DNA from: Neolewinella xylanilytica
GTDB lineage: Bacteria; Bacteroidota; Bacteroidia; Chitinophagales; Saprospiraceae
NCBI RefSeq assembly: GCF_002934605.1
Contig: NZ_PTJC01000007.1
Location: 62,001 to 126,000 of the forward strand
Direction: 5' to 3'
DNA length: 64,000 nucleotides
The notes beneath the pieces were generated by a model. The model was not told where the DNA came from, did no database searches, and was given only the letters and a program-made list of their open reading frames with translations. Below are positions 11,475-56,272 of this stretch, piece by piece. The position numbers and the translations under genes are program-made. Every line of letters begins with the position of its first letter. Positions within the stretch are counted from its first letter, which is position 1.

Positions 11475-11500
11475 CGGGTCGATCACCGGCTACCTGCTAC
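11464..11500. terminator. Hairpin between the converging HAD and purQ genes
   Basis: A perfect 12-base stem, GTAGCAGGTAGC (11464-11475) with GCTACCTGCTAC (11489-11500), and a 13-base loop. The HAD stop codon is in the first arm. No T-run follows on either side, so it may be a repeat-derived hairpin rather than a true intrinsic terminator. Confidence 0.45.
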
Positions 11501-11510
11501 CTGCTAGATA

Positions 11511-12215: not shown

Positions 12216-12264
12216 GTCGCTGAATTTAGGGTGTGAAGATAGGGCGGAAAATGCTGGGGGGTAT

Positions 12265-12318
12265 CTGACACATCGGATGTCTGTCAAAATGACAGTGCCT
12301 GACACATCCGATGTCTAC
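12265..12318. repeat. Paired-palindrome intergenic repeat, locus b
   Basis: CTGACACATCGGATGT, then CTGTCAAAATGACAG (itself a palindrome, CTGTCA/TGACAG), then CTGACACATCCGATGTCTAC. The right edge is the inverse of GTAGACATCGG at locus a. It lies in the 111-base gap between purQ and kdgK. Confidence 0.8.
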
Positions 12319-12326
12319 CGGGCAGT

Positions 12327-38912: not shown

Positions 38913-38917
38913 CGACC

Positions 38918-40513
38918 ATGAATACGATCAAATCAGTCTTCCTACTGCTACTGTGCGGGGCGACCTATTCCTGCTCCGATTTTCTGGAGGAGGAGCCGCG
39001 CAGCGAAGCCAGCCTGAATCAATTCTTTACCGAACCGGCCCACGCCGAGAACGCCGTGAACGCCCTTTACCGTGACGGCGCCCCCGCCCTGTGGATGAAC
39101 GGCGGCGTCTATAACGGGCGGGATATCATGTACGGCCCCTATCTATCGGGCTTTTTCGAAAACAATTACAAGGGGCAGTACGCCTACATCGGCTTTGCCC
39201 AGCAGTTGCAGCTTAATGCCATCAACTCGAACTCGATCCTGAATACCTACTGGTCGCAGATGTACCGGGAGATTAGCCGGGCCAACAACGCCATCAAGTA
39301 CATTCCGACCACCGAAGGGGTCAGCGAGGCGCAGGCCAACCGCCTGCTCGGCGAAGCCCGCTTCTTCCGGGCCTGGGCTTACTTCATGCTGGTGCGCCAC
39401 TTCGGCGACGTGCCCCTGATCGTAGAACCCTACGAGTCGCTGAACGACATTTACCGGCCCCGGAATTCAGCGGACGAGGTCTATGCCCTCATCGTACAGG
39501 ACCTGGAATTCGCCGTGAATTCCGCCGGGCTCGCCGAAGAGAACATGATCGAGAACGGCTACCGTGTCTCCAAACCGGCCGCCGCGGCCCTGCTGGCCGA
39601 CGTGCAGCTGACCCGCAGTGGATTCCCGCAACAGAACGATAACTACGCCGCCGCCGCGGCGGCGGCCCGCACCGTGATCAACGGTGGAAGCCACTCCCTG
39701 GCGCAGAACGATCTGGACGGAAGCGGCGATGTCGATCCGGAAAACAGTGCCTACAATAAGATCCGCCGGCAGGAGCTGACGGCCATTGCGCAAGAGTTCG
39801 TCTACCCCATCGAATTTACCATCGGTATCGCCGGTTCGGGCTACCCGGCCTATACCTATCCGGTGACGCTTACCAACCAGACGAACTACAGCATCACGAA
39901 CCAGGCCTACGAGCCCCGCGACGAGTTCCTGGCGATGTACGACGACGAGGCGGATCTCCGTATCCAGAACAAGCAGCTCTGGCATAATACCTACACGAAC
40001 GAGGACGGCGAAACGACCACCTTCCGCTTCCAGCCGTATCTATGGCACGACGACCAGGCGCTCTTCGGAACGACCAACCGCGCCAACTCCGAACTGGAAG
40101 TCGCCGCTTACACCTACGCGGAAGTCCTCCTGATCGCCGCCGAGGCCATTGCCCGCTCCGAGGGCGTCACCGCCGAGGCCGTCGACTACCTGACCCAGGT
40201 CCGCAGCCGCGCCTATTTCATGCAGGATGCCGAGGATATCCGTGCCGAATTGGCGGGGCTCTCCGTCCAGGAATTTGTCGAGGAAGTCTGGACCGAGCGG
40301 AATCGCGAACTGGCGCTGAACTTCAAGATCTGGTTCGATATGGTCCGGACCCGAAAGTACCCGGAAGCCAATGACGGTAACGTTACTTTCGTTGACCTGG
40401 TCGGCCGCGAAAATACCTGGGGATCGACCTACCAGGAACGCAACCTGCTCCTTCCCCTGCCCGACCAGGAATTGCAGCGGAATACCAACCTGGGACAGAA
40501 CACGGGATACTAG
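38918..40513 (+). CDS. SusD/RagB-family glycan-binding lipoprotein, first pair
   Basis: A protein of 531 residues. Lipobox signal MNTIKSVFLLLLCGATYSC with Cys19. The start after the anchor, SDFLEEEPRSEASLNQFF, is typical of SusD. TPR-like helices follow (for example LGEARFFRAWAYFMLVRHFG, DVPLIV), and the C-terminal SusD domain has WTERNRELALNFKIWFDM and ends LPLPDQELQRNTNLGQN. It sits over the SusC barrel on the cell surface and hands glycan fragments to it. It forms a pair with susC1. Confidence 0.95.
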   Translation: MNTIKSVFLLLLCGATYSCSDFLEEEPRSEASLNQFFTEPAHAENAVNALYRDGAPALWMNGGVYNGRDIMYGPYLSGFFENNYKGQYAYIGFAQQLQLNAINSNSILNTYWSQMYREISRANNAIKYIPTTEGVSEAQANRLLGEARFFRAWAYFMLVRHFGDVPLIVEPYESLNDIYRPRNSADEVYALIVQDLEFAVNSAGLAEENMIENGYRVSKPAAAALLADVQLTRSGFPQQNDNYAAAAAAARTVINGGSHSLAQNDLDGSGDVDPENSAYNKIRRQELTAIAQEFVYPIEFTIGIAGSGYPAYTYPVTLTNQTNYSITNQAYEPRDEFLAMYDDEADLRIQNKQLWHNTYTNEDGETTTFRFQPYLWHDDQALFGTTNRANSELEVAAYTYAEVLLIAAEAIARSEGVTAEAVDYLTQVRSRAYFMQDAEDIRAELAGLSVQEFVEEVWTERNRELALNFKIWFDMVRTRKYPEANDGNVTFVDLVGRENTWGSTYQERNLLLPLPDQELQRNTNLGQNTGY

Positions 40514-40616: not shown

Positions 40617-43355
40617 ATGCGTCCGTTTACCCTATTGCTGTTCGTACTGCTGGCCGGTGTAACCACCGGCCAGCAGTGGAACACGGAGGACGGTCCGCAA
40701 CTCACGCCGCGCATACGTCAATACGCTAAGTCGGACTACGGCGCCGATAACCAGAACTGGGACATCACCCAATCGCCCGAGGGCGTCCTCTACGTGGCCA
40801 ACTCCGGCGGCGTACTGCGCTTCGACGGACTCAACTGGAGCGTCCATCAGTTACCCGGCCGGCCGTCGGTGCGCTGCGTCACCCGCTACGCGGACCGCCT
40901 CTACGTGGGAGGGTACGGGGAATTCGGTTACTTCCGCCTGCGGGAAGGCCAGTTAGGTTCCTATGTATCCCTGAGCGCGACGCTTCCCCCGGAGGAACAG
41001 GGGGAGGAGATCTGGAACATCGAATTACTCGACGGAGGGGCGGTGGTCTTCCAATCCTTTTCCCGGCTGTACTGGTACGTCGGTGACGCGCTCCGCGTAG
41101 CGGTACCCGGCGATATCATGTTCGCCCACGCCGCCGGGGAAGCCTTACTCTACCCCGTAACGGGGGCGGGCATCTACCGGCAATCGCCGGGTAAGGAGGC
41201 CGTCCCGTTGCCGAACAGTGACCCGGGCGGGCAACCCATCGTCGGCCTGGCGGGTTCGGCTGACGAGCTGTTGGTCGCTACCGCGGGCGGCGTCTTCCGG
41301 TACGGGCACGACGGCTACGGATCGTGGTCCACCGTGGCCGATAGCCTGCTGTTCGGGCAGCAGATCAATCGACTGATTCGGCTCGGCGGGGGCGAGGTCG
41401 CCGTCGGTACCATTACCAGCGGGGTATACGTGTTCGACTCGGGAGGCAAACTGCTGCATCACCTGAGCTACGGACGGGGACTGAGCAACAACACGGTATT
41501 AGCCCTTTTCGAGGATCGGGACGGGAATCTATGGACGGGGCTTGATGGGGGGTTGAACCTCATCGTCCGGAGCGAGCCCCTGCTTTTTTACCGGTCCGGG
41601 GTCCGTCCCATCGGCTCGGCCTACGCGGCGGCGCACTACGGGGGCAGCTTTTACGTCGGCACCAACCAGGGCTTGTTCCGCTACCGACCGGAACCCGGCC
41701 AGTTTATCCTCGTGCCCGGTACGGCCGGGCAGGTATGGGAACTGAGGGCTACCCCCTACGGGCTACTGTGCGGTCATAACGACGGGACCTTCCTCGTCGA
41801 GGAAGATCGGGCAAACCTCATCTCCCCGCGCTCCGGTGGCTGGCAGAGCGTTTTCGTCGATGGTGACAGCACCCGGCTGCTACAGGCCAACTATGCCGGA
41901 CTCAGCCTGATCGATCTTGCTAAAGCGACGGGAAGCGGCGCAGCGGAAGCGGAGCACCGGTTGGAAGGGCTGCTCGCCCCCCTGCGGTACCTCGCGTTCA
42001 CCGGGCCACGGCGGGTACTGGCCCTGCACGGGTCCCGGGGTGCTTACGACATCAGGTTGTCGGCGGACCTCCGATCCATCGAACGGGTAGATACCCTGAC
42101 TAGCCCGGATCTCATCCGGCCGCTGCTGGTGCGTTTTGGGGATACGCTGCTGGTTCAGACCGACGACGGGATCTATCGCTACAGGGACGGAGCATTCAAC
42201 GAGCTGACCGCTTTTCGGGGGGCCGCCCTGACGCCGGGCACTTACGTGCTTCCCGGTCGGGAGGGCAGTGGGGAATGGTTCAAAGTGGATCCCGACCGCA
42301 TCGTACCCTACCGGAAGGAGCGGGCCCTGGCAGCCTACCCGGTTACCCTAAGACGAAGCTTTCCGGCGCTGGTGGCCACCACCGATTCGACCTACCTTTT
42401 TTGCCTGGATGACGGCTTCGCGCTTTTCGACGCTACGGGCGCAGCGGCGGAGCTGGACAGACGGGAGTTGCTACTGGATTATGCCGGGGTGACGGGGCGG
42501 CGGGTGGAAGGAGCAGCGGTCAGCATCCCTTACGCGGAGAATGATTTGCGGTTTGCTTATGCGCTACCGGTACTCGATCGTCCGATCCGGTATCGGTCCC
42601 GGTTGCTGGGCTTTAGCGACGCCTGGTCCGAGTGGTCGACGCTCGGGGCAAGAGAGTTCACCAACCTGGAAGAAGGCGCTTATCGCTTCGAGGTGGAGGC
42701 CGACTGGTTCGGCGCCGGGGCCACGGCATCCTTCTTCGTGCGCCCGCCCTGGTACCGCACGGGACTGGCCTACACGGCGTATGCGTTGTTCCTGGTCGGC
42801 CTGCTCTACGCCCTCTACCTGCAGCACCGGAAGCGACTGCGGCTACAGGCGCGGAAACTGGAAGCACTACGCCAGCGCCAGCTACAACGGCAGCGGATAG
42901 AGGCCCGTAACGAGCAACTGGAAGCGGAGAACAGGCGCAAGAGCCGGGAGCTGGCGAACACCACCCTTACGCTGGCCAAAAAAAACGAGATGCTGCTGGA
43001 CCTAAAGGGGGAGTTGTCGAAGTCTTCCGGTAGCCCCACCATCGGAAAAAGCTCCCAAAAACTGCTGCGGCTGATCGACCGGAACCTCAACAACGAAGAA
43101 GACTGGGCGATCTTCGAGTCGCACTTCAACGAGGTACACGAGGCTTTCCTGAAACGGTTGCGGGGGGAGCACGCCGATCTGACCTCCGGCGACCTGCGGT
43201 TGGCCGCGTACGTCCGGATGGATCTGAGTTCGAAGGAAATCGCGCCCCTGCTTCACATTTCCATTCGTGGGGTGGAGAACAAGCGATACCGGCTGAGAAA
43301 GAAGCTAGGGTTAGAAAGTAATGACAACCTGAATCAGTATTTGCATGATTTCTGA
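40617..43355 (+). CDS. Membrane-bound PUL regulator: propeller, Y_Y_Y domain and LuxR-type HTH
   Basis: A protein of 912 residues. A signal peptide (first 18) leads to a periplasmic sensor of beta-propeller repeats at about 20-640 (for example LFEDRDGNLWTGLDGGLNLI, LYVGGYGEFGYF). A Y_Y_Y-type domain (about 650-710) precedes one membrane helix (about 714-736, YTAYALFLVGLLYALYL). A coiled coil (about 740-800) ends in a cytoplasmic LuxR-type HTH at about 850-905 (SKEIAPLLHISIRGVENKRY). There is no histidine kinase or receiver domain, so it is a one-protein sensor and transcription factor like some SusR-type proteins. It most likely detects the glycan in the periplasm and turns on the PUL around it. 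Confidence 0.9.
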   Translation: MRPFTLLLFVLLAGVTTGQQWNTEDGPQLTPRIRQYAKSDYGADNQNWDITQSPEGVLYVANSGGVLRFDGLNWSVHQLPGRPSVRCVTRYADRLYVGGYGEFGYFRLREGQLGSYVSLSATLPPEEQGEEIWNIELLDGGAVVFQSFSRLYWYVGDALRVAVPGDIMFAHAAGEALLYPVTGAGIYRQSPGKEAVPLPNSDPGGQPIVGLAGSADELLVATAGGVFRYGHDGYGSWSTVADSLLFGQQINRLIRLGGGEVAVGTITSGVYVFDSGGKLLHHLSYGRGLSNNTVLALFEDRDGNLWTGLDGGLNLIVRSEPLLFYRSGVRPIGSAYAAAHYGGSFYVGTNQGLFRYRPEPGQFILVPGTAGQVWELRATPYGLLCGHNDGTFLVEEDRANLISPRSGGWQSVFVDGDSTRLLQANYAGLSLIDLAKATGSGAAEAEHRLEGLLAPLRYLAFTGPRRVLALHGSRGAYDIRLSADLRSIERVDTLTSPDLIRPLLVRFGDTLLVQTDDGIYRYRDGAFNELTAFRGAALTPGTYVLPGREGSGEWFKVDPDRIVPYRKERALAAYPVTLRRSFPALVATTDSTYLFCLDDGFALFDATGAAAELDRRELLLDYAGVTGRRVEGAAVSIPYAENDLRFAYALPVLDRPIRYRSRLLGFSDAWSEWSTLGAREFTNLEEGAYRFEVEADWFGAGATASFFVRPPWYRTGLAYTAYALFLVGLLYALYLQHRKRLRLQARKLEALRQRQLQRQRIEARNEQLEAENRRKSRELANTTLTLAKKNEMLLDLKGELSKSSGSPTIGKSSQKLLRLIDRNLNNEEDWAIFESHFNEVHEAFLKRLRGEHADLTSGDLRLAAYVRMDLSSKEIAPLLHISIRGVENKRYRLRKKLGLESNDNLNQYLHDF

Positions 43356-43477
43356 GCAAATCGTACACATGGCGTAGTCGCGGTGAGGTGAATTTATAGG
43401 TTTTAAAGGGGTTTCGGGAGAACTTTGGTGAAGTGATGGTGGATTATATCCTGCACACGCTGCCAAGTCGATCGTAC

Positions 43478-45352
43478 ATGAAACTAGCTTTACTTCCTTA
43501 CCGAGCCGCCTATCTGGGGTTGCTCCTTACCGTCACCACCGCTGTTTTGCGAGCCCAGGCCGGCACGGTGACCGGCGTAACGGCTACGGCCTACGACCAC
43601 CACGTGGAGATTAACTGGGAGCAGCCCGCCGACCCTTCCATCGATCGGGTACGGATATACGGATCTACCGACGGGGAAACCTTCAATCTGATCGGCTCGA
43701 CCAACAACGTGGAGACGCGGCTGGTGCACTTTGTCGGCGACCAGGGCGTGACGGGCCGCTACTTCCTCCGGGCGACCGGCAGCGGTGGAACCCTCGGGGA
43801 GCCCTCGGATACGGTTTCGGCGACCACCTACGCCATGAGCGATTCCGCCCTGCTCGACATGGTGCAGGAATATACCCTCCGTTACTTCTATGACTTCGGG
43901 CACCCGGTATCCGGCATGGCCCGCGAACGCAACGCCGGTAACGTCGTGACCACCGGCGGCACCGGCTTCGGCCTCATGGCCCTGATCGTGGGCGCCGAGC
44001 GCGGGTTCATTACCTACGACCAAGCCCTGGAGCGCACCAACAAGATCGTCGACTTTCTCGGGGAAATTCCCCGATTCCACGGTGCCTTCGCCCACTGGTA
44101 CAACGGCTCCACGGGGGAAGTGATCCCATTCAGCGCGCCCGATAACGGTGGCGACCTGGTGGAAACGGCCTTTCTTATGCAGGGGCTGCTGACCGCGCGG
44201 CAGTACTTCGCCGGCGACGGGGAAGCGGAAAGCGGCCTGCGCGACAACATCAACGAGCTCTGGGCCGGGGTCGATTGGAACTGGTACCGCAACGGCGGGG
44301 ACGTGTTGCTCTGGCACTGGTCGCCGGACTTTCGCTTTCAGATCAACCTGCCGATCCGCGGATTCAACGAAACCCACATCGTATACCTACTGGCTGCCGC
44401 CTCCCCGACGGAGGAGTACCGCATTCCGGCTTCCCTCTACCACACCGGCTGGGCGGGCGGCAGTTATGAGACTAACAATGTCTACTACGGCATTCCCCTG
44501 CTGGTGGGCGAACTGAAGGGCGGCCCACTCTTCTTCAGCCACTACAGCTATATGGGATTCGACCCCCGTGGCATCACGGACGATTACGCGAACTACTTCG
44601 TCCGCAACACCAACCACACCCGCATCAACTACCAGCACGCCCTGGACAACCCCTACAACCGGGAGGGCTACGGCCCGAACGTATGGGGCATCACGGCGAG
44701 CGACGACCCCGACGGCTATGCGGCCCACTCGCCGAACAGTTCGGCCCTGGACAACGGTACCATCGCGCCGACCGCCGCCCTGGGCAGCATGCCTTACACC
44801 CCGGAGGAAAGCATGAACGCGCTGAAGTATTTCTACCGGGAGCTCGGCGACCGGATGTGGGGGCCCTACGGCTTCTACGATGCCTTCAACCTGGACCGCG
44901 ACTGGTACGCTGACAGCTACCTGGCCATCGACCAGGGGCCCATCATCAACATGATCGAGAACCACCGCAGCGGGTTGCTGTGGGATGTATTCATGACGAG
45001 CCCGGAGATTGACCCTGCCCTTACCGCCGTGGGATTCGTGGTGGATACGACCACGACTACCGCCGTAGCCGAAATGCCCGCTTTTATGAAGGAGCGGCCC
45101 ACGGTTTTTCCGAATCCCGCGACCGACCGCGTCACGCTATCCCTGCACCCCGTCCGTGCCACCACCGTAAGCGTGGACCTCCTGGACGCCAGTGGTAGAC
45201 CGATTCGGAACCTGATCCCCAACACGGCCCTGACGGCCGGGCGCACGCGACTGCCCTTGCACCTGCGCTCCGGCGCAACGAGTGGCCTGTATTTCCTCCG
45301 TATCCGCAGCCCGGATGGCACCACCGCGGTGCCCCTGCTGCTCAACCGATAA
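43478..45352 (+). CDS. T9SS-secreted GH144-like glucanase (glucoamylase-like domain)
   Basis: A protein of 624 residues. The ATG at 43478 (MKLALLPYRAAYLGLLL) is preferred to GTG/ATG codons 14-15 codons upstream. After the signal peptide comes an FN3-like domain (about 25-115), the catalytic (alpha/alpha)6 domain of PF10091/GH144 type (about 125-525), and a type A T9SS tail (VFPNPATDRVTLSLHP ... SGLYFLRIRSPDG). Conserved regions shared with the gene at 48157 are GTGFGLMALIVGAERGFIT, DYANYFVRNTNHTR and YLAIDQGPIINMIENHRSG. GH144 enzymes studied so far are endo-beta-1,2-glucanases. The T9SS tail puts it on or outside the cell surface, a good place for first attack on the polymer. Confidence 0.9.
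   Translation: MKLALLPYRAAYLGLLLTVTTAVLRAQAGTVTGVTATAYDHHVEINWEQPADPSIDRVRIYGSTDGETFNLIGSTNNVETRLVHFVGDQGVTGRYFLRATGSGGTLGEPSDTVSATTYAMSDSALLDMVQEYTLRYFYDFGHPVSGMARERNAGNVVTTGGTGFGLMALIVGAERGFITYDQALERTNKIVDFLGEIPRFHGAFAHWYNGSTGEVIPFSAPDNGGDLVETAFLMQGLLTARQYFAGDGEAESGLRDNINELWAGVDWNWYRNGGDVLLWHWSPDFRFQINLPIRGFNETHIVYLLAAASPTEEYRIPASLYHTGWAGGSYETNNVYYGIPLLVGELKGGPLFFSHYSYMGFDPRGITDDYANYFVRNTNHTRINYQHALDNPYNREGYGPNVWGITASDDPDGYAAHSPNSSALDNGTIAPTAALGSMPYTPEESMNALKYFYRELGDRMWGPYGFYDAFNLDRDWYADSYLAIDQGPIINMIENHRSGLLWDVFMTSPEIDPALTAVGFVVDTTTTTAVAEMPAFMKERPTVFPNPATDRVTLSLHPVRATTVSVDLLDASGRPIRNLIPNTALTAGRTRLPLHLRSGATSGLYFLRIRSPDGTTAVPLLLNR
45262..45276 (+). repeat. Short GC-rich repeat, coding copy
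   Basis: Exact CCTGCGCTCCGGCGC inside the T9SS tail of the GH144-type gene. It may be chance or a sign that the repeat inserted into the gene end. Confidence 0.4.
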
Positions 45353-45378: not shown

Positions 45379-48084
45379 ATGCAAAGACTTTTACTTCTTT
45401 TATGCTGCCTTGCCGCCGGGTTCGGCCTGCGGGCGCAAACAACCGTCCTCTCCGACTTCGAGGGCGATGACGATCTGGTTACCTGGGAAGCCGTGGACGG
45501 CACCTATAACGGGGTGGTGGAAAACCCCGAGGATACCACCGGGATCAACCCCAGCGCCAGCGCGGGATCGTACACGAAGAGCGGCGAACATGCCTATAGT
45601 CAGTTCGTCGGCAACTTCGCCGAGCCACTGGACCTGGCTACCCAGAACGTCTTCACGATCCAGGTGTACGCCGACACCAACACCTCCTTCATTCTGAAAC
45701 TGGAGGGTGCGGTGCCGGCCGAGAACATCGAGAGGAAACAGAACATCGCCACGGCCAACGTGTGGCGGACCTACACCTTCGACTTCAGCGCGGCGGCCGA
45801 GCAATTTGACGCCACGCGGGTGCTGATCTTCTTCGACGAGAACGTCGAGACGACCACCAATACCTACCTGATCGACAACTTCACGGTGCGTGAAGGCGGC
45901 CCCTGCGCGGGCACGCCCGTAGACCCGCTGGTGATCGACAATTTTGAGTGCCAGCGCAACGCGACCTACGGCATCGGTTACAACGACGTGGAAGTGATTG
46001 CCAACCCCGAAAAGAACGGCATCAATACCAGCGACAGCGTCGGACGCTACACCGACCAGGCAGAAGCCTACCACGCCTTGGTCATCGACTACGACGAACC
46101 GATCGACCTGCGGGAGAATGCCCAATTCTGTATTAAAGTGTGGGCTCCGGTGGCCGGTGAACTGCTCTTCAAACTGGAGAGAACCGGCGGCCAGTATGAG
46201 GAAGGCGTCCAGATCACGGAAACCAACACCTGGGTGGAAGCCTGCGTCGACTTCAGCGGCGAAGCGGGCGAGGACTATACCCGCTTCGTGCTCTTCTTCA
46301 ATGCCGGCCAGGATGGTACGGACGACGTTTATTACATCGACGACATCACCCGCTCGGAGGCCCCCGTGGCCGAGGCCATCGAGGACTTCGAGGACGGTGC
46401 CTCGCTGAACTGGATGGCCGGCGGCAACAACGGTACCTTCAACGGGGTAATCGCCAACCCGAATATGACCGGTGCGAATACCAGCGAGAACGTCGGTAGT
46501 TATACCCGCGGCTCGGCGCAATTCGCCTTCCTACAGGCGGAACTGCAGGAAGCGCTTGATCTAAGTACGGAGCCCCAGATGAATCTGGATGTGTGGGCGC
46601 CGGAGGGAGCCACCAGCGTGACCATGCAATTGGTAAGCGCCTTGGACGGCGCGGTCAGCGTAACCGTTCCCCTGACCGCAACGCAAAGCTGGCAAACACT
46701 TAGCTTCAACTTTGCAGCGAACGCCGGCACCACCGATTTCAGTTCGATTCGGTTGCTATTCGATTCCGGCACTACCGGCACCGGTACGTACTACTTCGAC
46801 AATTTGTTTCAGGGAGCAGGAACGACGGATGAATGCGCGGACGTGGAGACCGATCTGCGGATACTCGATGACTTCGAGTGCCAGCGCAACGCCAACTACA
46901 CCGTCGGTGCCGGCGACCTGAGCGTGGTGGATAACCCCGACGGGGAGGAGGATAGTGGAAACGAGAGCGATCGCGTCGGCCGGTTCGACGATCCGGTCGG
47001 TATGTTCAGTGCGCTGGCCATCGGCTTCGACAGTGCCATCGACCTGAGCCTGAACAATCAGTTGCTCGTCGATATCTGGGCCCCGGTCGCCGGTGACATC
47101 ATCTTTAAGCTGGAGGGCGGTACGGCCGCTCCCGTGGAAATCCGCCGGACCATTCCCCAGACGGAGGCGTGGGTGATGTACTCCGTCGACCTGTCGGAAT
47201 ACGAGGGCGACGGCTACGAGACCCTGGTCATGTTCTTTGACGGAGGTGCCGGCAGCACCGTGGTGAATACCTACTACGTGGACAACATCCGGCTGAACCG
47301 GCCGCCGTACACGACCAGCTGTCTCTCTACCTTCGAGGATGAAGACTACACGCTGAGCGATTGGACCTATTTCGCGAACGGGGGCTTTGAGGGCAACGAC
47401 TTCCTGATCGTGGAAAACCCTGACCCCTCGGGCATCAATACGAGCGCCGAAGTAGGGCAATTCGAAGAGGCCAACGATGGCCTGGCCTTCGCCGGGCTGG
47501 CTGCGGACCTGTCCTCGCCGGTCCAGTTAGTCAATGGAGCCAAGACCGGCACGGTAAAGGTTTGGATGTCCGTTGCGGGCGAAGTCTGGTTGAAATTGGA
47601 ACGACCACGCGGCGATGCTCCGGGTAGTGGAGACGTTAAAGCGCAATACACGACACCCGGCGAATGGCAGGAACTGACTTTTGATTACAGCGCCCTCCCC
47701 GATGGTGCGATGTACGACCGCGTTTCGATCCTGATGAATGCCGCTGCCGTACCCGCTCAAGCGCAGACCCACTACTTCGACGACCTGGCTTTCGGCGGTG
47801 GCGACTGCGCCAACCTGACCGGCATCTTCACGCCCGTGCGCATCGACGCCCTCCGGGCCTTTCCGAACCCGGTGACCAGCCAATTGACTATTGACAACCC
47901 GAACCAAGCCGTCCGCTTCACCCTGACCAATATGCTCGGCCAGCAGGTGAAGGAGCTGGTAGCGGCTGGCGACGGAGCGCAGGTGTACTGGTCGGTAGAT
48001 GATCTCCGCCCCGCCACCTACGTGCTCGGTGCCTACGATCGCAGCGGTCGCCTGGTGGCCCGCTCCCTCATCGTCAAGCGCTAA
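45379..48084 (+). CDS. T9SS-secreted protein of five tandem unknown modules, possible glycan-binding protein
   Basis: A protein of 901 residues. Signal peptide, then five related modules of about 150 residues starting near 24, 184, 333, 494 and 647, and a type A T9SS tail from about 815 (AFPNPVTSQLTIDNPNQAV). Each module has the order DFE-start, a NPxxxGINTSxxVGxY-like loop, a central FxIxVWAPVAGxxxFKLE strand pair, a WxxxxxDFS strand, and a closing TYYxDNI-like strand. Modules 2 and 4 begin FECQRNA and resemble each other more than modules 1, 3 and 5, so the order is A-B-A-B-A. The fold is probably a jelly-roll CBM-like sandwich. No catalytic motif is evident. Its place between two GH144-type genes suggests binding of the same glucan. 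Confidence 0.82.
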   Translation: MQRLLLLLCCLAAGFGLRAQTTVLSDFEGDDDLVTWEAVDGTYNGVVENPEDTTGINPSASAGSYTKSGEHAYSQFVGNFAEPLDLATQNVFTIQVYADTNTSFILKLEGAVPAENIERKQNIATANVWRTYTFDFSAAAEQFDATRVLIFFDENVETTTNTYLIDNFTVREGGPCAGTPVDPLVIDNFECQRNATYGIGYNDVEVIANPEKNGINTSDSVGRYTDQAEAYHALVIDYDEPIDLRENAQFCIKVWAPVAGELLFKLERTGGQYEEGVQITETNTWVEACVDFSGEAGEDYTRFVLFFNAGQDGTDDVYYIDDITRSEAPVAEAIEDFEDGASLNWMAGGNNGTFNGVIANPNMTGANTSENVGSYTRGSAQFAFLQAELQEALDLSTEPQMNLDVWAPEGATSVTMQLVSALDGAVSVTVPLTATQSWQTLSFNFAANAGTTDFSSIRLLFDSGTTGTGTYYFDNLFQGAGTTDECADVETDLRILDDFECQRNANYTVGAGDLSVVDNPDGEEDSGNESDRVGRFDDPVGMFSALAIGFDSAIDLSLNNQLLVDIWAPVAGDIIFKLEGGTAAPVEIRRTIPQTEAWVMYSVDLSEYEGDGYETLVMFFDGGAGSTVVNTYYVDNIRLNRPPYTTSCLSTFEDEDYTLSDWTYFANGGFEGNDFLIVENPDPSGINTSAEVGQFEEANDGLAFAGLAADLSSPVQLVNGAKTGTVKVWMSVAGEVWLKLERPRGDAPGSGDVKAQYTTPGEWQELTFDYSALPDGAMYDRVSILMNAAAVPAQAQTHYFDDLAFGGGDCANLTGIFTPVRIDALRAFPNPVTSQLTIDNPNQAVRFTLTNMLGQQVKELVAAGDGAQVYWSVDDLRPATYVLGAYDRSGRLVARSLIVKR

Positions 48085-48156: not shown

Positions 48157-49542
48157 ATGAGACTACTTCCCGTACTGTTGTTGTTGATCCTGGCTGCCTG
48201 TCAGCGCGCTCCGGCCGATACGACCGATGCCGGGACGGTAGCGGAAAACCGCGACTTCAGTCTTGACGAACTGCAACGCCGCACCTTCGGCTACTTCTGG
48301 GAGCGCGCCCACCCGGAAACCTACCAGGTCCCCGACCGCTGGCCCACCGACCGCTTCAGCAGCATCGCGGCCACCGGCTTCGGCCTGACGTCCTACATCG
48401 TCGGGGCCGAACGCGGCTACGTGACCCGGGCCGAGGCCGCCGAGCGGACGCGGAACACGCTGGAAAAGCTGTGGACCCTGCCCCAGGGACCGGAGATGAG
48501 CGGTGTGGCCGGCCACAAGGGCCTGTTCTACCACTTCCTGAACAACGACGATGCCCTCCGCTACGGCGACGTGGAGCTTTCCACCATCGACACCGGCCTG
48601 CTCATGGCGGGCGTGCTGTCGGTGATGAGCTACTTCGACGGCGACGGCGAAGACGAGCGCCGTATCCGCGAACTGGCCGACCAGCTCTACCGCCGCGTAG
48701 AGTGGGACTGGAGCCTGAACGAAAAAGGCCGCATGAGCATGGGCTGGCGCCCCGACCGCGGGTTCATCCCCGCCGAATGGAACGGCTACAACGAGGCCAT
48801 GATCCTGGTCATCCTCGGCCTCGGCTCGCCGACCCACCCGCTGCCCGACGACGCCTGGGAGCGCTGGACGGAGGGTTACGACTGGCAGGAGTTCCAGGGC
48901 TACGAGCACCTGAACTTCACGCCGCTCTTCGGCCACCAGTACAGCCACATGTACGTGGACTTCCGCGGCATTCAGGACGACTACATGCGCGAGCAAGACA
49001 GCGACTACTTCGAAAACAGCCGCAAGGGCACCCTCAGTAACCGGGCCTACTGCGTCGATAACCCCGAGAACTTCGCGGGCTACGGACCCAATCAGTGGGG
49101 CCTGACCGCCTGTGACGGTCCAGGTGGACTGGACACCATTGTGGACGGGGTGCCCAGGGAATTCTATTCCTACCGGGCACGCGGTGCCTCCGCCGACCAC
49201 ATCATCGATGACGGCACCATCGCGCCCACCGCCGCCGGCGGATCGGTGCCTTTCGCCCCCGAGGAAAGCATCGCCGCCCTCGAGCATATGTGGACCACCC
49301 AGTACGACAGCCTCGTCGGGCCCTATGGCTTCCGCGACGCCTTCAACCCGACCTACACCTATGGTGAAGGAAACGAGAACGGCTGGTACGACGTCGACTA
49401 CCTCGGCATCGATCAGGGCCCGATCCTGATCCAGATCGAAAATCACCGCTCGGAACTGATCTGGGAGGTGATGAAGAAAAACCCCTACGTACGGCGTGGC
49501 CTGGAACGGGCCGGGTTCACCGGGGGATGGATGGAGGAGTGA
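48157..49542 (+). CDS. Lipoprotein GH144-like glucanase
   Basis: A protein of 461 residues, catalytic domain only. It has a lipobox with Cys15 (LILAAC), so it is anchored in the outer membrane or periplasm. The domain is the same (alpha/alpha)6 GH144 type as in the gene at 43478: ATGFGLTSYIVGAERGYVTR, FVDFRGIQ-like DDYM region and YLGIDQGPILIQIENHRSE. It lacks FN3 and T9SS parts. The two proteins therefore share an enzyme type but differ in delivery (T9SS against lipoprotein). A likely job is further cutting of fragments taken up by SusCD. The gene follows a terminator and is followed by GH3 at 67 bases. Confidence 0.9.
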   Translation: MRLLPVLLLLILAACQRAPADTTDAGTVAENRDFSLDELQRRTFGYFWERAHPETYQVPDRWPTDRFSSIAATGFGLTSYIVGAERGYVTRAEAAERTRNTLEKLWTLPQGPEMSGVAGHKGLFYHFLNNDDALRYGDVELSTIDTGLLMAGVLSVMSYFDGDGEDERRIRELADQLYRRVEWDWSLNEKGRMSMGWRPDRGFIPAEWNGYNEAMILVILGLGSPTHPLPDDAWERWTEGYDWQEFQGYEHLNFTPLFGHQYSHMYVDFRGIQDDYMREQDSDYFENSRKGTLSNRAYCVDNPENFAGYGPNQWGLTACDGPGGLDTIVDGVPREFYSYRARGASADHIIDDGTIAPTAAGGSVPFAPEESIAALEHMWTTQYDSLVGPYGFRDAFNPTYTYGEGNENGWYDVDYLGIDQGPILIQIENHRSELIWEVMKKNPYVRRGLERAGFTGGWMEE

Positions 49543-49609: not shown

Positions 49610-51802
49610 ATGAACAAAGCTTTATTACTGATGCTGGTCCTGCTATCCGCGGGGCTGCGCGCCCAGCAGGTACCCGACTGGTACGACGCCGGGCACGAGC
49701 GGCGCATCGACAGCCTGTTGGACATCATGACCCTCGAGGAGAAGGTGGGGCAGATGACGCTCTTCACCAGCGACTGGGACGTGACCGGTCCGACGATCCG
49801 CGAGGGCTACCAGGATGACATCAAGACCGGCCGGCTGGGCGCCATCTTCAACGCCCATACCGCCGAATACAACCGCAACCTGCAGCGCATCGCGGTGGAG
49901 GAGACCCGACTGGGTATTCCCCTGCTGTTCGGCTACGACGTGATCCACGGCTACCGGACCATCTTTCCCATTCCCCTCGGCGAAGCCGCCAGCTGGAACG
50001 CGGAGGCCGCCGAGGAATCCGCCCGCATTGCGGCCCGCGAATCCGCCGCCGCCGGCCTGCACTGGACCTTCGCTCCGATGGTCGACGTCGCCCGCGACCC
50101 CCGCTGGGGCCGGGTCATGGAAGGCGCCGGCGAGGACGTGTACCTGGGCAAGGTCATGGCCGCGGCCCGGGTAAAGGGCTTCCAAGGCGACGACCTGACC
50201 GATCCGCTCACCATCCTGGCCTGCGCCAAGCATTTCGCCGCCTACGGGGCGGCCCAGGCGGGGCGGGATTACCATACCGTAGACATCTCCGAGCGGGTAC
50301 TGCGCGACATCTACCTGCCGCCCTTCAAGGCCGCCCTGGACGCCGGGGTAGCCACCTTCATGACCAGCTTTAACGAGCTGGACGGGGTGCCCGCCAGTGG
50401 CAACGAACACCTGCTCACGGAGATCCTGCGCGACCAGTGGGGCTTCATGGGCTTCGTGGTGACCGATTACACCAGCATCAACGAGATGGTCCCCCACGGT
50501 ATCGCCACCGATTCGGCCGCCGCCGGGGAGCTGGCCATCGAGGCCGGGGTGGACATGGATATGCAGGGCGCCATCTTCTACGAATACCTCGCTGAGCAGG
50601 TCCGCAGCGGCGCGGTAGCCCAGTCCCAGATCGATGAGGCCGTGCGCCGTATTCTCCGCATGAAGTACGCGCTGGGCCTTTTCGACGATCCTTACCGCTA
50701 CTCCGATACGACCCGCGAAAGCGAGAACATCCTGACCGAAGCCAACCGGGAAGCCGCACGGCGGATCGCGCGCGAAAGCTTTGTGCTGTTGAAGAACGAG
50801 GACAATGTGCTGCCGCTAGCGAAAGACGGCGGCCGCATCCTGATCACCGGGCCACTGGCCGACAGCCAGGAAGACATGCTCGGCGCCTGGCACGGAGACG
50901 GGCGGGCCGCCGATGTCATCACCCTCCTGACCGGTATGCGGGAAGCAGCGGGCGACAAAGCGCAGGTGCAATACGTTTCGGACATGACCGAAGCCATCCG
51001 CGCCGCCCGACGTGCTGACGTGATCGTTGTAGCCGCCGGCGAAACCTGGGAAATGAGCGGGGAAGCCGCCAGCCGGGCCGACATCGGCCTGCCGGGCGAC
51101 CAGGGGGCAATGATCCGCGAGCTGGCCGCCATCGGCAAGCCCGTCGTGGTGGTGCTCTTTAACGGCCGGCCCCTAGCGATTCCCGGCGTGGATTCCACGG
51201 CCACGGCCATTCTGGAAGCCTGGTACCCGGGTACGGAAGCCGGTCATGCCCTGGCTGACGTGCTCTTCGGTGATCATAACCCCGGCGGCCGGTTGCCGAT
51301 GACGTTCCCGCGCTCCGTCGGCCAAGTCCCCATCTTCTACAGCATGAAGAACACCGGGCGCCCCATGGACCCGAACAACAAATACACCAGCAAGTACCTC
51401 GACGAAAGCAACGACCCGCTGTATCCCTTCGGCTACGGCCTGGGCTACACCACCTTCGAATACGGTGCCCCGAGCCTGGAATCGGCTACCATTACCCGCA
51501 ACGACACCGCCCGCGTGTCGGTGGAATTGACCAATACGGGCTCGGTGGCCGGCACCACCGTGGTGCAGCTGTACGTACAGGACGTGATCGGCTCCGTCAC
51601 CCGCCCGGTACGCGAGCTCAAGGCCTTCGAACGGGTCGAACTGGCCGCCGGCGAAAGCCGCACCGTGACCCTGGAACTGACCGAGGAGGACCTGTCCTTC
51701 TACCGCCGCGACATGACCTACGGCAGCGAACCCGGCGCGTTCCGCATATACGTCGGCGCCGACGCCACCACATCCAACGCTATCTCCCTGACATTAGAAT
51801 AA
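49610..51802 (+). CDS. GH3 beta-glucosidase (BglX-like)
   Basis: A protein of 730 residues with signal peptide (MNKALLLMLVLLSAGLRAQQ) and no lipobox, so probably periplasmic. GH3 N-terminal barrel: KVGQMTLFTSDWDVTG, then WTFAPMVDVARDPRWGR, and the nucleophile Asp286 in FVVTDYTSI. The C-terminal domain and FN3-like end are complete (GYGLGYTTFEYGAP, VQLYVQDVIGSVTRPVRELK). GH3 enzymes remove glucose from oligosaccharide ends. In Bacteroides and Chitinophaga, GH3 genes next to GH144 act on sophoro-oligosaccharides, which supports the beta-1,2-glucan reading. The gap upstream has GAATT-rich phrases. Confidence 0.95.
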   Translation: MNKALLLMLVLLSAGLRAQQVPDWYDAGHERRIDSLLDIMTLEEKVGQMTLFTSDWDVTGPTIREGYQDDIKTGRLGAIFNAHTAEYNRNLQRIAVEETRLGIPLLFGYDVIHGYRTIFPIPLGEAASWNAEAAEESARIAARESAAAGLHWTFAPMVDVARDPRWGRVMEGAGEDVYLGKVMAAARVKGFQGDDLTDPLTILACAKHFAAYGAAQAGRDYHTVDISERVLRDIYLPPFKAALDAGVATFMTSFNELDGVPASGNEHLLTEILRDQWGFMGFVVTDYTSINEMVPHGIATDSAAAGELAIEAGVDMDMQGAIFYEYLAEQVRSGAVAQSQIDEAVRRILRMKYALGLFDDPYRYSDTTRESENILTEANREAARRIARESFVLLKNEDNVLPLAKDGGRILITGPLADSQEDMLGAWHGDGRAADVITLLTGMREAAGDKAQVQYVSDMTEAIRAARRADVIVVAAGETWEMSGEAASRADIGLPGDQGAMIRELAAIGKPVVVVLFNGRPLAIPGVDSTATAILEAWYPGTEAGHALADVLFGDHNPGGRLPMTFPRSVGQVPIFYSMKNTGRPMDPNNKYTSKYLDESNDPLYPFGYGLGYTTFEYGAPSLESATITRNDTARVSVELTNTGSVAGTTVVQLYVQDVIGSVTRPVRELKAFERVELAAGESRTVTLELTEEDLSFYRRDMTYGSEPGAFRIYVGADATTSNAISLTLE

Positions 51803-51812
51803 CTACCCTATT

Positions 51813-54794
51813 ATGCAACGATCATTTACCATCCTATTCGCGCTGCTCGTCAGCCTGGGGCTATCGGCCCAGGTGACGGTAGACGGTATCGTCACCGACG
51901 GTACCGAACCGCTCATCGGCGTCAGCGTGCAGGTGCCCGGCACGACCAGCGGCACCATCACCGACATTGACGGGCGCTACGAACTCACGGTTCCCGAAGG
52001 CGGCGACACCCTCTCTTTTTCCTACATCGGTTTCACCACCCAGGCGGTGGCGATCAACGGCCGGACTACCGTCGACATCGTCCTTGGCGAAGCCAGCGAA
52101 GTCTTGCAGGAAATCGTAGTCGTGGGCTACGGTATCCAGCAGAAGGACGACCTGACCGGCGCCGTCGGTGTGGTCGAATCGGACCAGCTGACGGATATTC
52201 CAACCCAGTCGCTCGGCCAGTCGCTGCAGGGTAAGGTCTCCGGCCTGCAGATCATCCCGGGTTCCGGCGCGCCGGGTGCCGACGCGATCTTCCGGATCCG
52301 CGGAGTGGGTACGCTCAACAACGCTGACCCCCTCTTCGTGGTGGACGGCATGATCCTCAACGACATCTCCTTCCTTAACCCCCAGGACGTGGAGAGCGTC
52401 TCCGTGCTTAAAGACGCCAGCGCTACGGCCATCTACGGTGCCCGCGGTGCCAACGGGGTGATCATCGTGACGACCAAGCAGGGCGACGGCGAGGGCCAGC
52501 TCACCATCAACGCCTACGCTGGCACCCAGGAAGTGGTGCGGCAGATCGACGTGCTGAATGCTACGGAGTACGCCACCCTGGTCAACGAGGCCGACGTGAA
52601 CGTGGGCCGCCAACCGCGCTTCCCTAACCCGGAGCAGTACGGCGAGGGTACCAACTGGCAGGACGTGATCTTCCAGCAGGCCCCCATTTATAATGCCCAA
52701 ATATCCTTTCTGGGAGGTGGCGAGGAATCCAGTTTTAACCTCAGTGCTAACTACTACAAGCAGGAGGGCATCATCCGGGGCTCGGGCTACGACCGCTTCA
52801 CGGCGCGCCTCAACAACACCCGCCAGGTGAAGGACTGGCTCACCGTAGCCGGCAACCTGAACCTGGGCTACAATACGTCCGATAATATTCCGACCGGAGG
52901 TGTGCTGCTGACCGCCTACCGCGCCGACCCCATCTCGGTGCCCCGCGACTCGGCCGGCAACTTCGCCGATGCCTCCGCGATCGGAAACACCGGCAACCCC
53001 CTGGCTACGATCAACTACACGAACGACCGCAGCCAGACCTACCGGGCGGTGGGGAATACCTACGCCGACGTGACTTTCCTGGACGGCTTCCGCTTCCGGA
53101 CCAACTTCGGTCTCGACTTCGTATATGACCGGAACCGAAACTTCTCGCCGGTATTCCGCGTCGGCCCCAGTCAGCAGAACCTGGAAAGCGACATCAGAAT
53201 AACTAACGCGTACCGCCGTAACTGGCTCTGGGAGAATACCCTGAACTACAATAACACCTTCGGTGTCCACCAGGTGGATGGCGTAGTGGGTATTACATAC
53301 CAGGACAATTTTGGCGAATTTATCGAGGGAGCCCGCCAGCGGGTGATCGGTGATGACCCCAGTTTCTACTATCTCGACTCGGCCGACCCCACCACCGCTA
53401 CCAACGCCAGCGGAATCCGCGGTGGCGACTGGGGACTGGTCAGCTACCTCGGCCGCCTGAACTACACCTACGATAGCCGCTACCTCCTCACGGTGTCCGG
53501 CCGGGTGGACGGATCGAGCCGCTTCGGGCAAAACTACCAGTACGGCTTTTTCCCCTCCGTCGGCCTCGGCTGGAACGTCAACCGCGAAGCCTTCTGGAAC
53601 GACGGCGGACCCATCAGCCGCCTGAAGCTCCGGGCCAGTTGGGGGCAGACCGGTAACGACCGCATCGGTGACTACCGCTACGTTCCCCGGGTAGCCAGCG
53701 CGCTCGGCGCGGTGTTCGGTAACGAACCCGTACTGCTGCCCGGCGCTACCCTGACCAGCCTCGCTAACCCCGATCTGCGTTGGGAGGAAACTACCCAGAC
53801 CGACGTCGGAGTGGAACTCGGCCTGTTCAACAACCAGTTTCTCTTCGAGGCCGATTTCTACCGCAAACTGACGAGCGATATCCTGTTCGAGGCGCCCATC
53901 CCCGATTACATCGGCGCTAATCCTGCCGTGCGCAACGTAGCCGAAGTGCTGAACCGCGGCGTCGACCTGAGTGCCAGCTGGCGCGCCGGTAACGATGCGT
54001 TCCGCTATAATCTCGGCGCCATCGCCAGCTTCGTGCACAACGAGGTGATCAGCCTCGACGGAGACACCGAAAACTTCTTCGGTGGTGCACTAGGGGTAGG
54101 CGGCCAACTCGGTACGAACTCCCGGGTAGGTTCCGCAGCCGGCTCTTTCTACGGCTACGAGGCCATCGGCGTGTTCCAGAACGAGGAGCAGCTGGGTCAA
54201 TTCGCGCAGCTTGGTAACCAGGGCGTCGGCGACATCATCTTCCGCGACGTTAATGACGACGGCGTGATCGACGCCGCCGGCGACCGGGTCGTACTCGGTT
54301 CGGCCATCCCGGACATGATCCTCGGCATCAACGGCTCCTTCGCCTATTCCGGACTGGAGCTGAGCTTCGACATCACCGGCCAGTTCGGCAGCGAGGTCAT
54401 CAACGCCAAGCAGATGGCCCGCTTCGGTGCCTATAACTACGAGGATCGCTGGCTCGACCGCTTCACCGGCGAGGGGACCAGCAACACGATCCCGCAGGCG
54501 ACCATTGGCGGACAAAACTTCGAGCGCTTATCCTCGCTTTACGTAGAGGATGGCTCGTACATCCGCCTGCGGAACGTGACGCTCGGTTACCGCTTCGCTT
54601 CCGACCTAACCGACCGCCTCCGGATGCAATCGCTGCGGGTATACGTCAACGGTACCAACCTGGTCACCAGCCAGGAGTACAGCGGCTACAACCCCGAGAT
54701 CTACAACGACAACGTTTTCGACAACGGCATCGACGGCGGCACCATTTACCCGATCGCCCGCACCATCACGGCCGGTATCGACATCACCTTTTAA
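51813..54794 (+). CDS. SusC-type TonB-dependent receptor, second pair
   Basis: A receptor of 993 residues. Signal peptide MQRSFTILFALLVSLGLSAQ. Carboxypeptidase-like domain (about 22-95, DGIVTDGTEPLIGVSVQVPG and GTITDIDGRYELTV), plug domain (IVVVGYGIQQKDDLTGAVGV, LKDASATAIYGARGANGV) and a 22-strand barrel that ends TITAGIDITF. It has the same family as susC1 but is clearly different in the barrel. The partner SusD starts 11 bases downstream. Two pairs in one locus may import fragments of different length or linkage. It starts 10 bases after the GH3 stop, so it is in the same transcription unit. Confidence 0.95.
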   Translation: MQRSFTILFALLVSLGLSAQVTVDGIVTDGTEPLIGVSVQVPGTTSGTITDIDGRYELTVPEGGDTLSFSYIGFTTQAVAINGRTTVDIVLGEASEVLQEIVVVGYGIQQKDDLTGAVGVVESDQLTDIPTQSLGQSLQGKVSGLQIIPGSGAPGADAIFRIRGVGTLNNADPLFVVDGMILNDISFLNPQDVESVSVLKDASATAIYGARGANGVIIVTTKQGDGEGQLTINAYAGTQEVVRQIDVLNATEYATLVNEADVNVGRQPRFPNPEQYGEGTNWQDVIFQQAPIYNAQISFLGGGEESSFNLSANYYKQEGIIRGSGYDRFTARLNNTRQVKDWLTVAGNLNLGYNTSDNIPTGGVLLTAYRADPISVPRDSAGNFADASAIGNTGNPLATINYTNDRSQTYRAVGNTYADVTFLDGFRFRTNFGLDFVYDRNRNFSPVFRVGPSQQNLESDIRITNAYRRNWLWENTLNYNNTFGVHQVDGVVGITYQDNFGEFIEGARQRVIGDDPSFYYLDSADPTTATNASGIRGGDWGLVSYLGRLNYTYDSRYLLTVSGRVDGSSRFGQNYQYGFFPSVGLGWNVNREAFWNDGGPISRLKLRASWGQTGNDRIGDYRYVPRVASALGAVFGNEPVLLPGATLTSLANPDLRWEETTQTDVGVELGLFNNQFLFEADFYRKLTSDILFEAPIPDYIGANPAVRNVAEVLNRGVDLSASWRAGNDAFRYNLGAIASFVHNEVISLDGDTENFFGGALGVGGQLGTNSRVGSAAGSFYGYEAIGVFQNEEQLGQFAQLGNQGVGDIIFRDVNDDGVIDAAGDRVVLGSAIPDMILGINGSFAYSGLELSFDITGQFGSEVINAKQMARFGAYNYEDRWLDRFTGEGTSNTIPQATIGGQNFERLSSLYVEDGSYIRLRNVTLGYRFASDLTDRLRMQSLRVYVNGTNLVTSQEYSGYNPEIYNDNVFDNGIDGGTIYPIARTITAGIDITF

Positions 54795-54805
54795 GCACCC
54801 TAATC

Positions 54806-56272
54806 ATGCACAACATGAAATCGCTATATCAAATTCTCGGGCTGGTCGTCGTACTGGGCGCCACGGCCTGTACCGACGTACTCGACCGCACCCCCCAGGG
54901 CGAATACACCCTGGAAAACTTCTTCCAGAGTGAGGAACAGGCCGTGCAGTCCGTCAACGCCGTCTACAATCAGTTGCGGCAGTGGGAAACCCACGTATTC
55001 AGCTTCATCGGCATGACCGACATCGTCAGCGACGACTCCGACAAGGGCAGTACCACCTCCGATGGTTTCTTCCTCCAGGAGGTCGACCAGTTCACCCACA
55101 CGCCGAGTAACGTGGCCCCGGCCGCGGTGTGGTCCGGCTACTACACCGGCATTTTCCGGGCCAACCTCGCCATCACGCGCATTCCGGACGTACCGGAAAT
55201 GGACGAGGGGCTAAGGCAGCGCCTCATCGCGGAAGCCTCCTTCCTGCGGGCCTATTACTACTTCAACCTGGTACGCTGGTTCGGAGGGGTCCCCCTGATC
55301 CTGCAGCCCTTCCCGGATGACTTCGAAATCCCCCGTACCCCGGTGGATGAGGTGTACGCCCGGATCGAGGCCGATCTCACCTTCGCCATGGACAACCTGC
55401 CGGCGAGCTACAGTGGCACGGACATCGGCCGCGTAACCAGCGGGGCCGCCACGGGTCTGCTGGCGAAGGTAGCGCTGACCCGGATGGACTACGACCAGGC
55501 CGCCAATCTGGCCCTGGAAGTGATCAACGGCGGTGAATACGCGTTGCTTCCCAACTATTCCAACATTTTCACCCTCGACGGGGAAAACAGCCGTGAAAGC
55601 CTTTTTGAAGTCCAAGCCGCGGCCTTCGAAATCGGTGGCGGCGGAAGCCAGTACAACGAGGTGCAGGGCGTACGCGGGGTGCCCAACCTGGGCTGGGGCT
55701 TCAACCGTCCCAGCGACGACCTCATTGCCGAATTCGAGCGCGGTGATCCCCGCCGGGAGGCGACCATCCTCTACGTAGGGGAAATCCTTCCCGACGGTTC
55801 CGGTATCGTCGAGGGTGACGAAAACATCGACGGCGAACGCTTCAATCAAAAAGCGTTCGTCGCCGAGCACCCCGGCGGCAACGGCAACGGACCCGGAAAT
55901 ATCCGCATCCTGCGCTACGCCGACGTGCTGCTCATCGCCGCCGAGGCGCTCAACGAGCTTGGCCGGCAGGAGGAAGCCCGGATGTACCTCAACATGGTAC
56001 GGGAACGCGCCCGGGGTGGCGCCAATGTCCTGCCCGACGTGACCACCACCGACCAGGGCGAATTGCGCGAAGCCATCTGGCACGAGCGCCGCGTGGAGCT
56101 GGCCCTGGAGCAGCACCGCTGGTTCGACCTGGTGCGCACCAACCGTTCCTTCGAGGTGATGAACCCCCTGCGGCCCAACTTCACCGCCAATAAGAACGAG
56201 CTCTTCCCCATTCCCCAGGTCGAGATCGACCTCAGCGAGGGCGTCCTGGAGCAGAACCCCGGTTACAATTAA
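54806..56272 (+). CDS. SusD/RagB-family glycan-binding lipoprotein, second pair
   Basis: A protein of 488 residues. The lipobox is LGATAC (Cys22 from the ATG at 54806; the ATG at 54815 is possible). It opens TDVLDRTPQGEYTLENFFQS, has the SusD helical core (AEASFLRAYYYFNLVRWFGG, VPLIL) and the C-terminal domain (WHERRVELALEQHRWFDLVR, ending LEQNPGYN). It is the surface glycan-binding partner of susC2. It is the last gene of the PUL; a strong terminator follows. Confidence 0.95.
   Translation: MHNMKSLYQILGLVVVLGATACTDVLDRTPQGEYTLENFFQSEEQAVQSVNAVYNQLRQWETHVFSFIGMTDIVSDDSDKGSTTSDGFFLQEVDQFTHTPSNVAPAAVWSGYYTGIFRANLAITRIPDVPEMDEGLRQRLIAEASFLRAYYYFNLVRWFGGVPLILQPFPDDFEIPRTPVDEVYARIEADLTFAMDNLPASYSGTDIGRVTSGAATGLLAKVALTRMDYDQAANLALEVINGGEYALLPNYSNIFTLDGENSRESLFEVQAAAFEIGGGGSQYNEVQGVRGVPNLGWGFNRPSDDLIAEFERGDPRREATILYVGEILPDGSGIVEGDENIDGERFNQKAFVAEHPGGNGNGPGNIRILRYADVLLIAAEALNELGRQEEARMYLNMVRERARGGANVLPDVTTTDQGELREAIWHERRVELALEQHRWFDLVRTNRSFEVMNPLRPNFTANKNELFPIPQVEIDLSEGVLEQNPGYN

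Follow-up and report, generated by a model that had tools for sequence, protein, structure and literature searches.

A putative glycan-binding array with a T9SS-type tail in a β-1,2-glucan PUL of Neolewinella xylanilytica, built from relatives of a laminarin-binding CBM

Introduction

Bacteria make β-1,2-glucans, polymers that take part in osmoregulation and symbiosis (PMC12102758), and PULs with GH144 belong to the abundant types according to PMC6499787. A CBM dedicated to β-1,2-glucan was not found among the matches listed in a search of open-access literature, subscription papers being mostly outside the scope of this search. A PUL of Neolewinella xylanilytica raises the question of what captures such a polymer at the cell surface. 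In the 64,000-nucleotide stretch of contig NZ_PTJC01000007.1 that was analysed (the window), a gene for a five-module protein with a T9SS-type tail lies between two GH144 genes. The initial annotation took this protein for a member of an unnamed and possibly new CBM family, exported by the T9SS and perhaps doing the job of the surface lipoprotein usually encoded beside SusD. Here we describe what the modules are, with which enzymes they travel, and how the protein is probably displayed.

The β-1,2-Glucan PUL Around the Array

Judging from its genes, the setting is a β-1,2-glucan PUL, with two GH144 enzymes that retain key residues, a GH3 enzyme, and a SusC/SusD pair, which agrees with the glucan PUL recognized in the initial annotation. 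All of its genes are on the forward strand. A sensor-regulator of the kind often found at the head of a PUL (40617..43355; Reg_prop above its cut-off, Y_Y_Y and LuxR-type HTH below theirs) is followed by a CpSGL-type GH144 endo-β-1,2-glucanase with a T9SS tail of its own (43433..45352; PDB 5gzh, E 4.1e-140), in which D237, D241, E244, and E313 align with D135, D139, E142, and E211 of CpSGL. Downstream of the array is a GH144 of the XcSGL (XCC2207) type (48157..49542; 8xul, E 8.5e-139), a candidate lipoprotein by its signal (...LILAAC, read by eye), which has Glu at the site of a Gln in the 8xul chain; this Gln is probably that of a mutant crystal. The PUL continues with a GH3 β-glucosidase (49610..51802; NCBIfam BglX 842 bits, cut-off 666, a family match without linkage assignment), a SusC-like TonB-dependent transporter (51813..54794), and a SusD-like protein (54806..56272), the last two assigned by profile matches. 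The array gene is not adjacent to SusD.

Both CpSGL and XcSGL are treated as GH144 β-1,2-glucanases by Nakajima et al. (2025; PMC12102758), and GH194 was rejected for the second PF10091 enzyme because XcSGL is a GH144 member in the same text. The genome has two PF10091 genes, both in this PUL. Marine GH144 PULs with an added sulfatase, and possibly a sulfated polymer as target, are described in PMC6499787. No sulfatase match was obtained among the scanned proteins of the PUL; the ligand of the window array could be decorated.

Other genes of the window are mentioned here for completeness. A second SusC/SusD pair (35787-40513) is located immediately upstream of the regulator, with close relatives in L053 and L141 (one genome), L133, L136, and L143, and was not seen in most other pieces of this PUL. 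A ThuA-domain protein (56364-57140) is encoded directly 3' of SusD, as in L139 and L142, and a 781-aa ORF on the reverse strand (59149-61494) has no Pfam match at E≤0.01. Outside the array's PUL, a GH5 cellulase with CBM6 and a T9SS tail is encoded at 3844-6033.

Layout of the Array

The ORF at 45379..48084 (+) encodes 901 aa. Its product starts with a signal peptide that has no lipobox, continues with five modules of ~147-165 aa, and ends in a C-terminal domain; we annotate it as a putative five-module glycan-binding protein with a T9SS-type tail on the basis of alignments, profile and fold searches, and a model. It is the only protein with these modules inside the window; one further protein is encoded in the genome, in another PUL. 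The signal peptide noticed earlier covers aa 1-20 (45379..45438), ends in ...LRAQ, and is a helix at residues 2-16 in the model. Module 1 (M1; aa 22-173, 45442..45897) and module 3 (M3; aa 333-479, 46375..46815) are of type A, module 2 (M2; aa 183-330, 45925..46368) and module 4 (M4; aa 490-640, 46846..47298) are of type B, and module 5 (M5; aa 642-806, 47302..47796) is of type C. Profiles and the tree place all five, joined by module alignments for M1, M2, and M4, by the best Pfam CBM_4_9 stretch (aa 335-461) for M3, and by a structure model for M2. The C-terminal domain, read as a T9SS-type sorting domain from profile scores below cut-off, orthologues, and the model, occupies aa 828-901 (47860..48081).

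In local alignments of module against module, all ten pairs far outscored their 200 shuffled versions (z 12.3 to 51.4), so M1-M5 form one family, as the initial annotation had supposed from shared strand patterns. The closest pair is M2/M4 (61/139 identical). D(N/D)FECQRNA opens each of them and contains the FECQRNA already read from the letters. The full-length model (pLDDT 83.1, pTM 0.41) is rich in strands in the modules and the tail; because the pTM is low, its domain placement is unreliable.

The Modules are Relatives of a Laminarin-Binding CBM

By sequence and predicted fold, M1-M5 are carbohydrate-binding-type β-sandwich modules distantly related to a laminarin-binding CBM. Pfam CBM_4_9 matches the window protein above its cut-off (29.3 bits, cut-off 25.9); it also matches 9/23 members of the orthologue alignment (E≤0.01), and SGBP_B_XBD matches 11/23. 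In a phmmer search of the PDB the match was 8qx6_A (E 2.9e-11). A profile of eight modules, five from the window protein and three from a paralogue in the same genome, matched 8qx6 from position 9 to position 147 of 148 (E 1.4e-24), indicating homology over the whole module; the next match was 1gui, from laminarinase 16A (E 0.0019). The initial annotation had also proposed structure prediction of a single module with a fold search. This was done for module 2 only, using an alignment of 128 B-type modules: the model (pLDDT 95.8) is a sandwich consisting almost entirely of β strands, and Foldseek placed both 8qx6 chains first (E 3.8e-10, probability 1.00, 30% identity, TM 0.73 by query length), before CBM16, CBM4, CBM22, and CBM11 structures. 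That the modules are instead catalytic or spacer domains without sugar binding is hardly credible, since their best fold and sequence matches are CBMs and no enzyme family of Pfam or NCBIfam matches the window protein at E≤1.

The PDB title of 8qx6 is "Novel laminarin-binding CBM X584." We take this structure to be a CBM102 module, presumably from Christiangramia forsetii and the work of Zuhlke et al. (2024), and the lipoprotein and SusD-GH16 setting of its relatives fits this assignment. The best identity to 8qx6 in searches of 397 and 16 genomes was 74%, the exact parent not being found. The family is thus not unnamed, and the suggestion of a new CBM family is not supported; what appears to be new is a subfamily of this known laminarin CBM that belongs to β-1,2-glucan PULs. 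The title of 8qx6, the closest solved homologue, also speaks for a different reading, in which the array has kept its binding to laminarin or some other β-1,3-linked glucan and is merely carried in a GH144 PUL for a mixed or decorated glucan.

Module Types and Array Grammar

Our phylogenetic analysis (IQ-TREE; 67 of a total of 341 modules, 66 of them taken from 16 chosen loci and the other being 8qx6) gave a split with a support of 98/95: on one side are the A, B, and f5-type B modules together with two from L100, and on the other are 8qx6, the C modules, and the modules of laminarin loci. M1 and M3 belong to one type, M2 and M4 to another, and M5 clusters with those of laminarin loci. The arrangement is therefore A-B-A-B-C, and the A-B-A-B-A order read earlier had to be abandoned for its last module. 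Judging from the same tree, type-B modules, which bear the FECQRN motif, are a clade of their own (B plus f5-type B, 92/96) found in Saprospiraceae and in a second family, f5, which we infer to be Flavobacteriaceae on the strength of named loci that share its type of PUL. The distinct array strings were A-A-B-A-B-C (34), A-B-A-B-C (33), A-B-A-B-A-B-C (8), and A-A-A-B-A-B-C (2), as typed by profile HMMs built from the same material; the remaining strings consisted of f5-type B modules alone or laminarin-type modules alone, or were fragments.

These data bear in both directions on the laminarin reading. In the tree, module C goes with the laminarin modules, and at position 44 the A modules have in 74% of cases the Lys that is common in laminarin-locus modules. 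Against it, nearly all modules of laminarin loci are separated from A and B in the tree, and B modules differ from the laminarin-locus type by shifts including K44 to D44 (Asp in 94% of B modules) and G51 to A51.

A few modules cross the line. Two modules from the GH16 locus L100 fall with A and B in the tree, and one of the four modules of an 8qx6-like lipoprotein in L226 was typed A by the profiles, so that membership of the A/B side does not strictly imply "β-1,2-glucan." In a larger FastTree, one laminarin-locus module from L097, partial and on a long branch, was placed among the A modules. The L100 modules belong to a two-module T9SS protein (L100:7891-9216, reverse strand) in a locus with GH16 and GH3 and without GH144, and this protein may mark an intermediate specificity.

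Association with GH144

Within its own family the window protein had matches in 110/199 genomes (E≤1e-8), and across the phylum in 25/198 genomes (E≤1e-10), the neighborhoods of the weaker phylum-wide matches being examined in part, chiefly in the own and f5 families. Among 34 other loci with matches at E≤3e-150, GH144 was found in all 34 pieces (CpSGL type in 31, XcSGL type in 28) and GH16 in none. The recurrent order is regulator - GH144 - array - GH144 (XcSGL type) - GH3 - SusC - SusD, and in many relatives' loci genes of this order are missing or the contig ends.

A scan of named genomes for the type-B motif found at least 79 loci, and those listed come mostly from Lewinella, Neolewinella, and Saprospiraceae MAGs, and also from Gillisia, Lutibacter, and another Flavobacteriaceae. 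The family had been expected to keep to glycan loci, and for type B it does: GH144 is present in 77/79 listed loci (67 with the CpSGL type and 10 more with the XcSGL type only) and GH16 in 0/79, this set overlapping with the 34 loci in some genomes. In the two listed loci with neither type, L155 and L182, the array is at a contig end, and in L182 the nearest recognized gene before it is a regulator. Conversely, 20 loci chosen by similarity to 8qx6, from 20 of 28 matching genomes, had GH16 in 15/20 and GH144 in 0/20. The listed motif loci and the 8qx6-similarity loci are the two sets chosen by sequence alone. In pooled sets, which were assembled partly with gene context in view, 85 of 87 type-B loci had GH144 and none had GH16, and 46 laminarin-type loci had GH144 in none, GH16 in 35, and neither in 11.

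In f5, 13/249 genomes matched the lipoprotein of the GH144 locus in genome G103 (E≤1e-30). The seven best (E≤3.5e-55) are all in GH144 loci and the other six (E≥1.7e-42) are all in GH16 loci. In one f5 locus, an 1821-aa protein (L119:5395-10860) with a T9SS tail (Pfam 47 bits, cut-off 27) is made up of 11 B-type modules, of which ten have very similar starts. Next to it in this GH144 PUL is a protein with four modules that resembles a lipoprotein.

The absence of GH16 from the listed type-B loci argues against laminarin as the ligand, as does the genome's laminarin-type PUL, which has its own lipoprotein of the same module family; we leave the laminarin reading only a small chance. The suggestion that A and B modules bind β-1,2-glucan comes from the way in which module type goes with enzyme in two families; in the case of B alone, the position shifts point the same way.

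Cysteine Pattern

The FEC motif was present in 225/228 typed Saprospiraceae B modules, and a Cys exactly 15 residues upstream of the FEC Cys in 225/225 motif-bearing modules (genomes found in both collections are counted twice; 172 B modules are distinct). FECQ was considered as a mark of the binding site and rejected on this count, since the invariant spacing makes the Cys look structural. Among f5-type B modules the motif occurred in 62/67, with a Cys within 30 residues upstream in 62/62 (36 at 15, 18 at 10, 7 at 17, and 1 at 8). C modules have a Cys near each end in 105/106, repeats between collections included. In the window protein the corresponding residues are linker Cys176 and module Cys191 for M2 (spacing 15), Cys486 and Cys501 for M4, and Cys648 and Cys810 flanking M5. 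The linker Cys with the FEC Cys, and the pair around module C, are probably disulfide staples.

Predicted Display at the Cell Surface

The T9SS tail claimed in the initial annotation is supported by relatives and not by the window protein alone, the tail of which (aa 828-896) scored below both cut-offs (Por_Secre_tail 24.3 bits, cut-off 27; TIGR04183 18.4, cut-off 23). Por_Secre_tail matched 23/23 members of the orthologue alignment at E≤0.01, the window protein included (best 1.8e-11), and the genome has genes for SprA (2272 bits) and for four members of the PorV family. With the orthologues taken into account, we read the tail as a predicted T9SS sorting domain. In the 79 listed motif-found loci, 68/82 module-bearing ORFs had a T9SS tail as called by a profile built from GH144 tails (4/68 also trip a loose lipobox rule), 5/82 end C-terminally at a contig end, and 9/82 are tail-less. 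The nine comprise intact lipoproteins in L196, L207, L210, and L211, fragments in L199 (two), L198, and L161, and the ORF of L197, the end of which resembles a T9SS tail without a profile score. The 56 ORFs for laminarin-locus proteins in 46 loci divided into 27 with a lipobox, 15 with a T9SS tail, and 14 with neither by our rules (2/56 are cut at the C-terminal end), and the two forms adjoin each other in L097, L098, and L103. Because laminarin-locus proteins come in both forms, T9SS display is not special to β-1,2-glucan.

The claim that a T9SS protein stands in for the lipoprotein beside SusD was only partly sustained: the PUL setting and the T9SS-type tail agree with it, and against it the GH144 PULs of f5 have a lipoprotein form, which in 3/7 loci (L119, L120, and L122) lies beside a T9SS array, so that the T9SS form need not be a partner of SusD. 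These adjoining forms, the T9SS-type tail, arrays of up to 11 modules (L119), and the conserved Cys spacing would also suit a protein that is mainly a T9SS surface scaffold or adhesin, keeping the cell attached to other bacteria or to particles that bear glucan and not feeding SusC/SusD. This reading is a shade less probable even than the laminarin one in our judgment; its difficulty is the position of the gene inside the PUL, the nearest recognized upstream gene being a CpSGL-type GH144 for 65/92 and the nearest downstream gene an XcSGL-type GH144 for 57/92 module-bearing ORFs in 86 type-B loci, counts that include fragments and contig ends.

Proposed Function

We consider it likely that the window protein is an array that captures glycan at the cell surface for a β-1,2-glucan PUL and binds β-1,2-glucan through its A and B modules. 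The best reading of its sequence is a T9SS-exported array of a β-1,2-glucan-specialized laminarin-CBM subfamily, which would do or supplement the job of an SGBP. The A and B modules would bind linear, cyclic, or decorated β-1,2-glucan, and the T9SS would hold the array at the surface, where it would concentrate the polymer close to both GH144 enzymes, the one with a T9SS tail and the one of lipoprotein type; their products would pass through SusC/SusD to GH3. The Cys 15 residues before the FEC Cys and the Cys pair around module C would act as staples that turn the array into a stiffer rod. Module C could retain a broader or β-1,3-glucan-like affinity, and since it groups with laminarin-locus modules, binding by the array may not be confined to a single glucan. 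The fuller proposal, that A and B are a dedicated β-1,2-glucan CBM subfamily, split from the laminarin CBM, linked to GH144 in at least two families, and presented in Saprospiraceae as Cys-stapled, T9SS-displayed A-B rods, is one we lean toward with less assurance.

The pairing of laminarin-type modules with GH16 and of B-type modules with GH144 offers a comparison of a possible switch in CBM linkage specificity, and one module family is found as a lipoprotein or with a T9SS tail. Looking for a lipoprotein next to SusD would miss T9SS-tailed glycan-binding proteins.

Comparison with Known Systems

The SGBPs of Bacteroidota are characterized by a lipoprotein signal and a gene directly after SusD. 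The window protein has no lipobox, and its gene is located between the two GH144 genes. CBM92 is multivalent like the array and binds β-glucan oligosaccharides including sophorose (KD 882 μM) according to PMC11039641, which also describes it as a β-trefoil preferring β-1,6-glucan; it is unrelated to the window modules.

8qx6 shares the fold and full-length sequence homology with the window modules, although the A and B modules are in a separate part of the tree. Its relatives, like the window array, have several copies per protein (one to five modules; four in L226), but 16/22 of their ORFs are flagged as lipoproteins by rule, and they lie between SusD and GH16 in 12/20 loci, whereas the window protein has a T9SS-type tail and belongs to a GH144 PUL. 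The paralogue in the same genome (L005:12314-14374, reverse strand) is of the same module family (27-34% identity), but it has a lipobox instead of a T9SS tail, three laminarin-type modules, and a PKD domain (Pfam PKD_4 40.9 bits, cut-off 27), and its gene comes directly after SusD and before two GH16 genes. The laminarin-type PUL to which it belongs (L005:9762-18993) consists of SusC, SusD, this PKD lipoprotein, and the two GH16; one GH16 ORF (10575-12635) overlaps the lipoprotein ORF, so that its true start is probably further in.

Further counterparts are the GH144-PUL lipoproteins of f5 (L119-L121, L123, L132) and of Gillisia and Lutibacter (L196, L207, L210), which have type-B modules in SusC/SusD/GH144/GH3 loci as the window protein does; CBM_4_9 was above its cut-off in the two tested (L132, L119). 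They differ from the window array in being lipoproteins with four B-type modules and neither A nor C, and L119 and L120 have an extra T9SS array of 11 or 5 modules.
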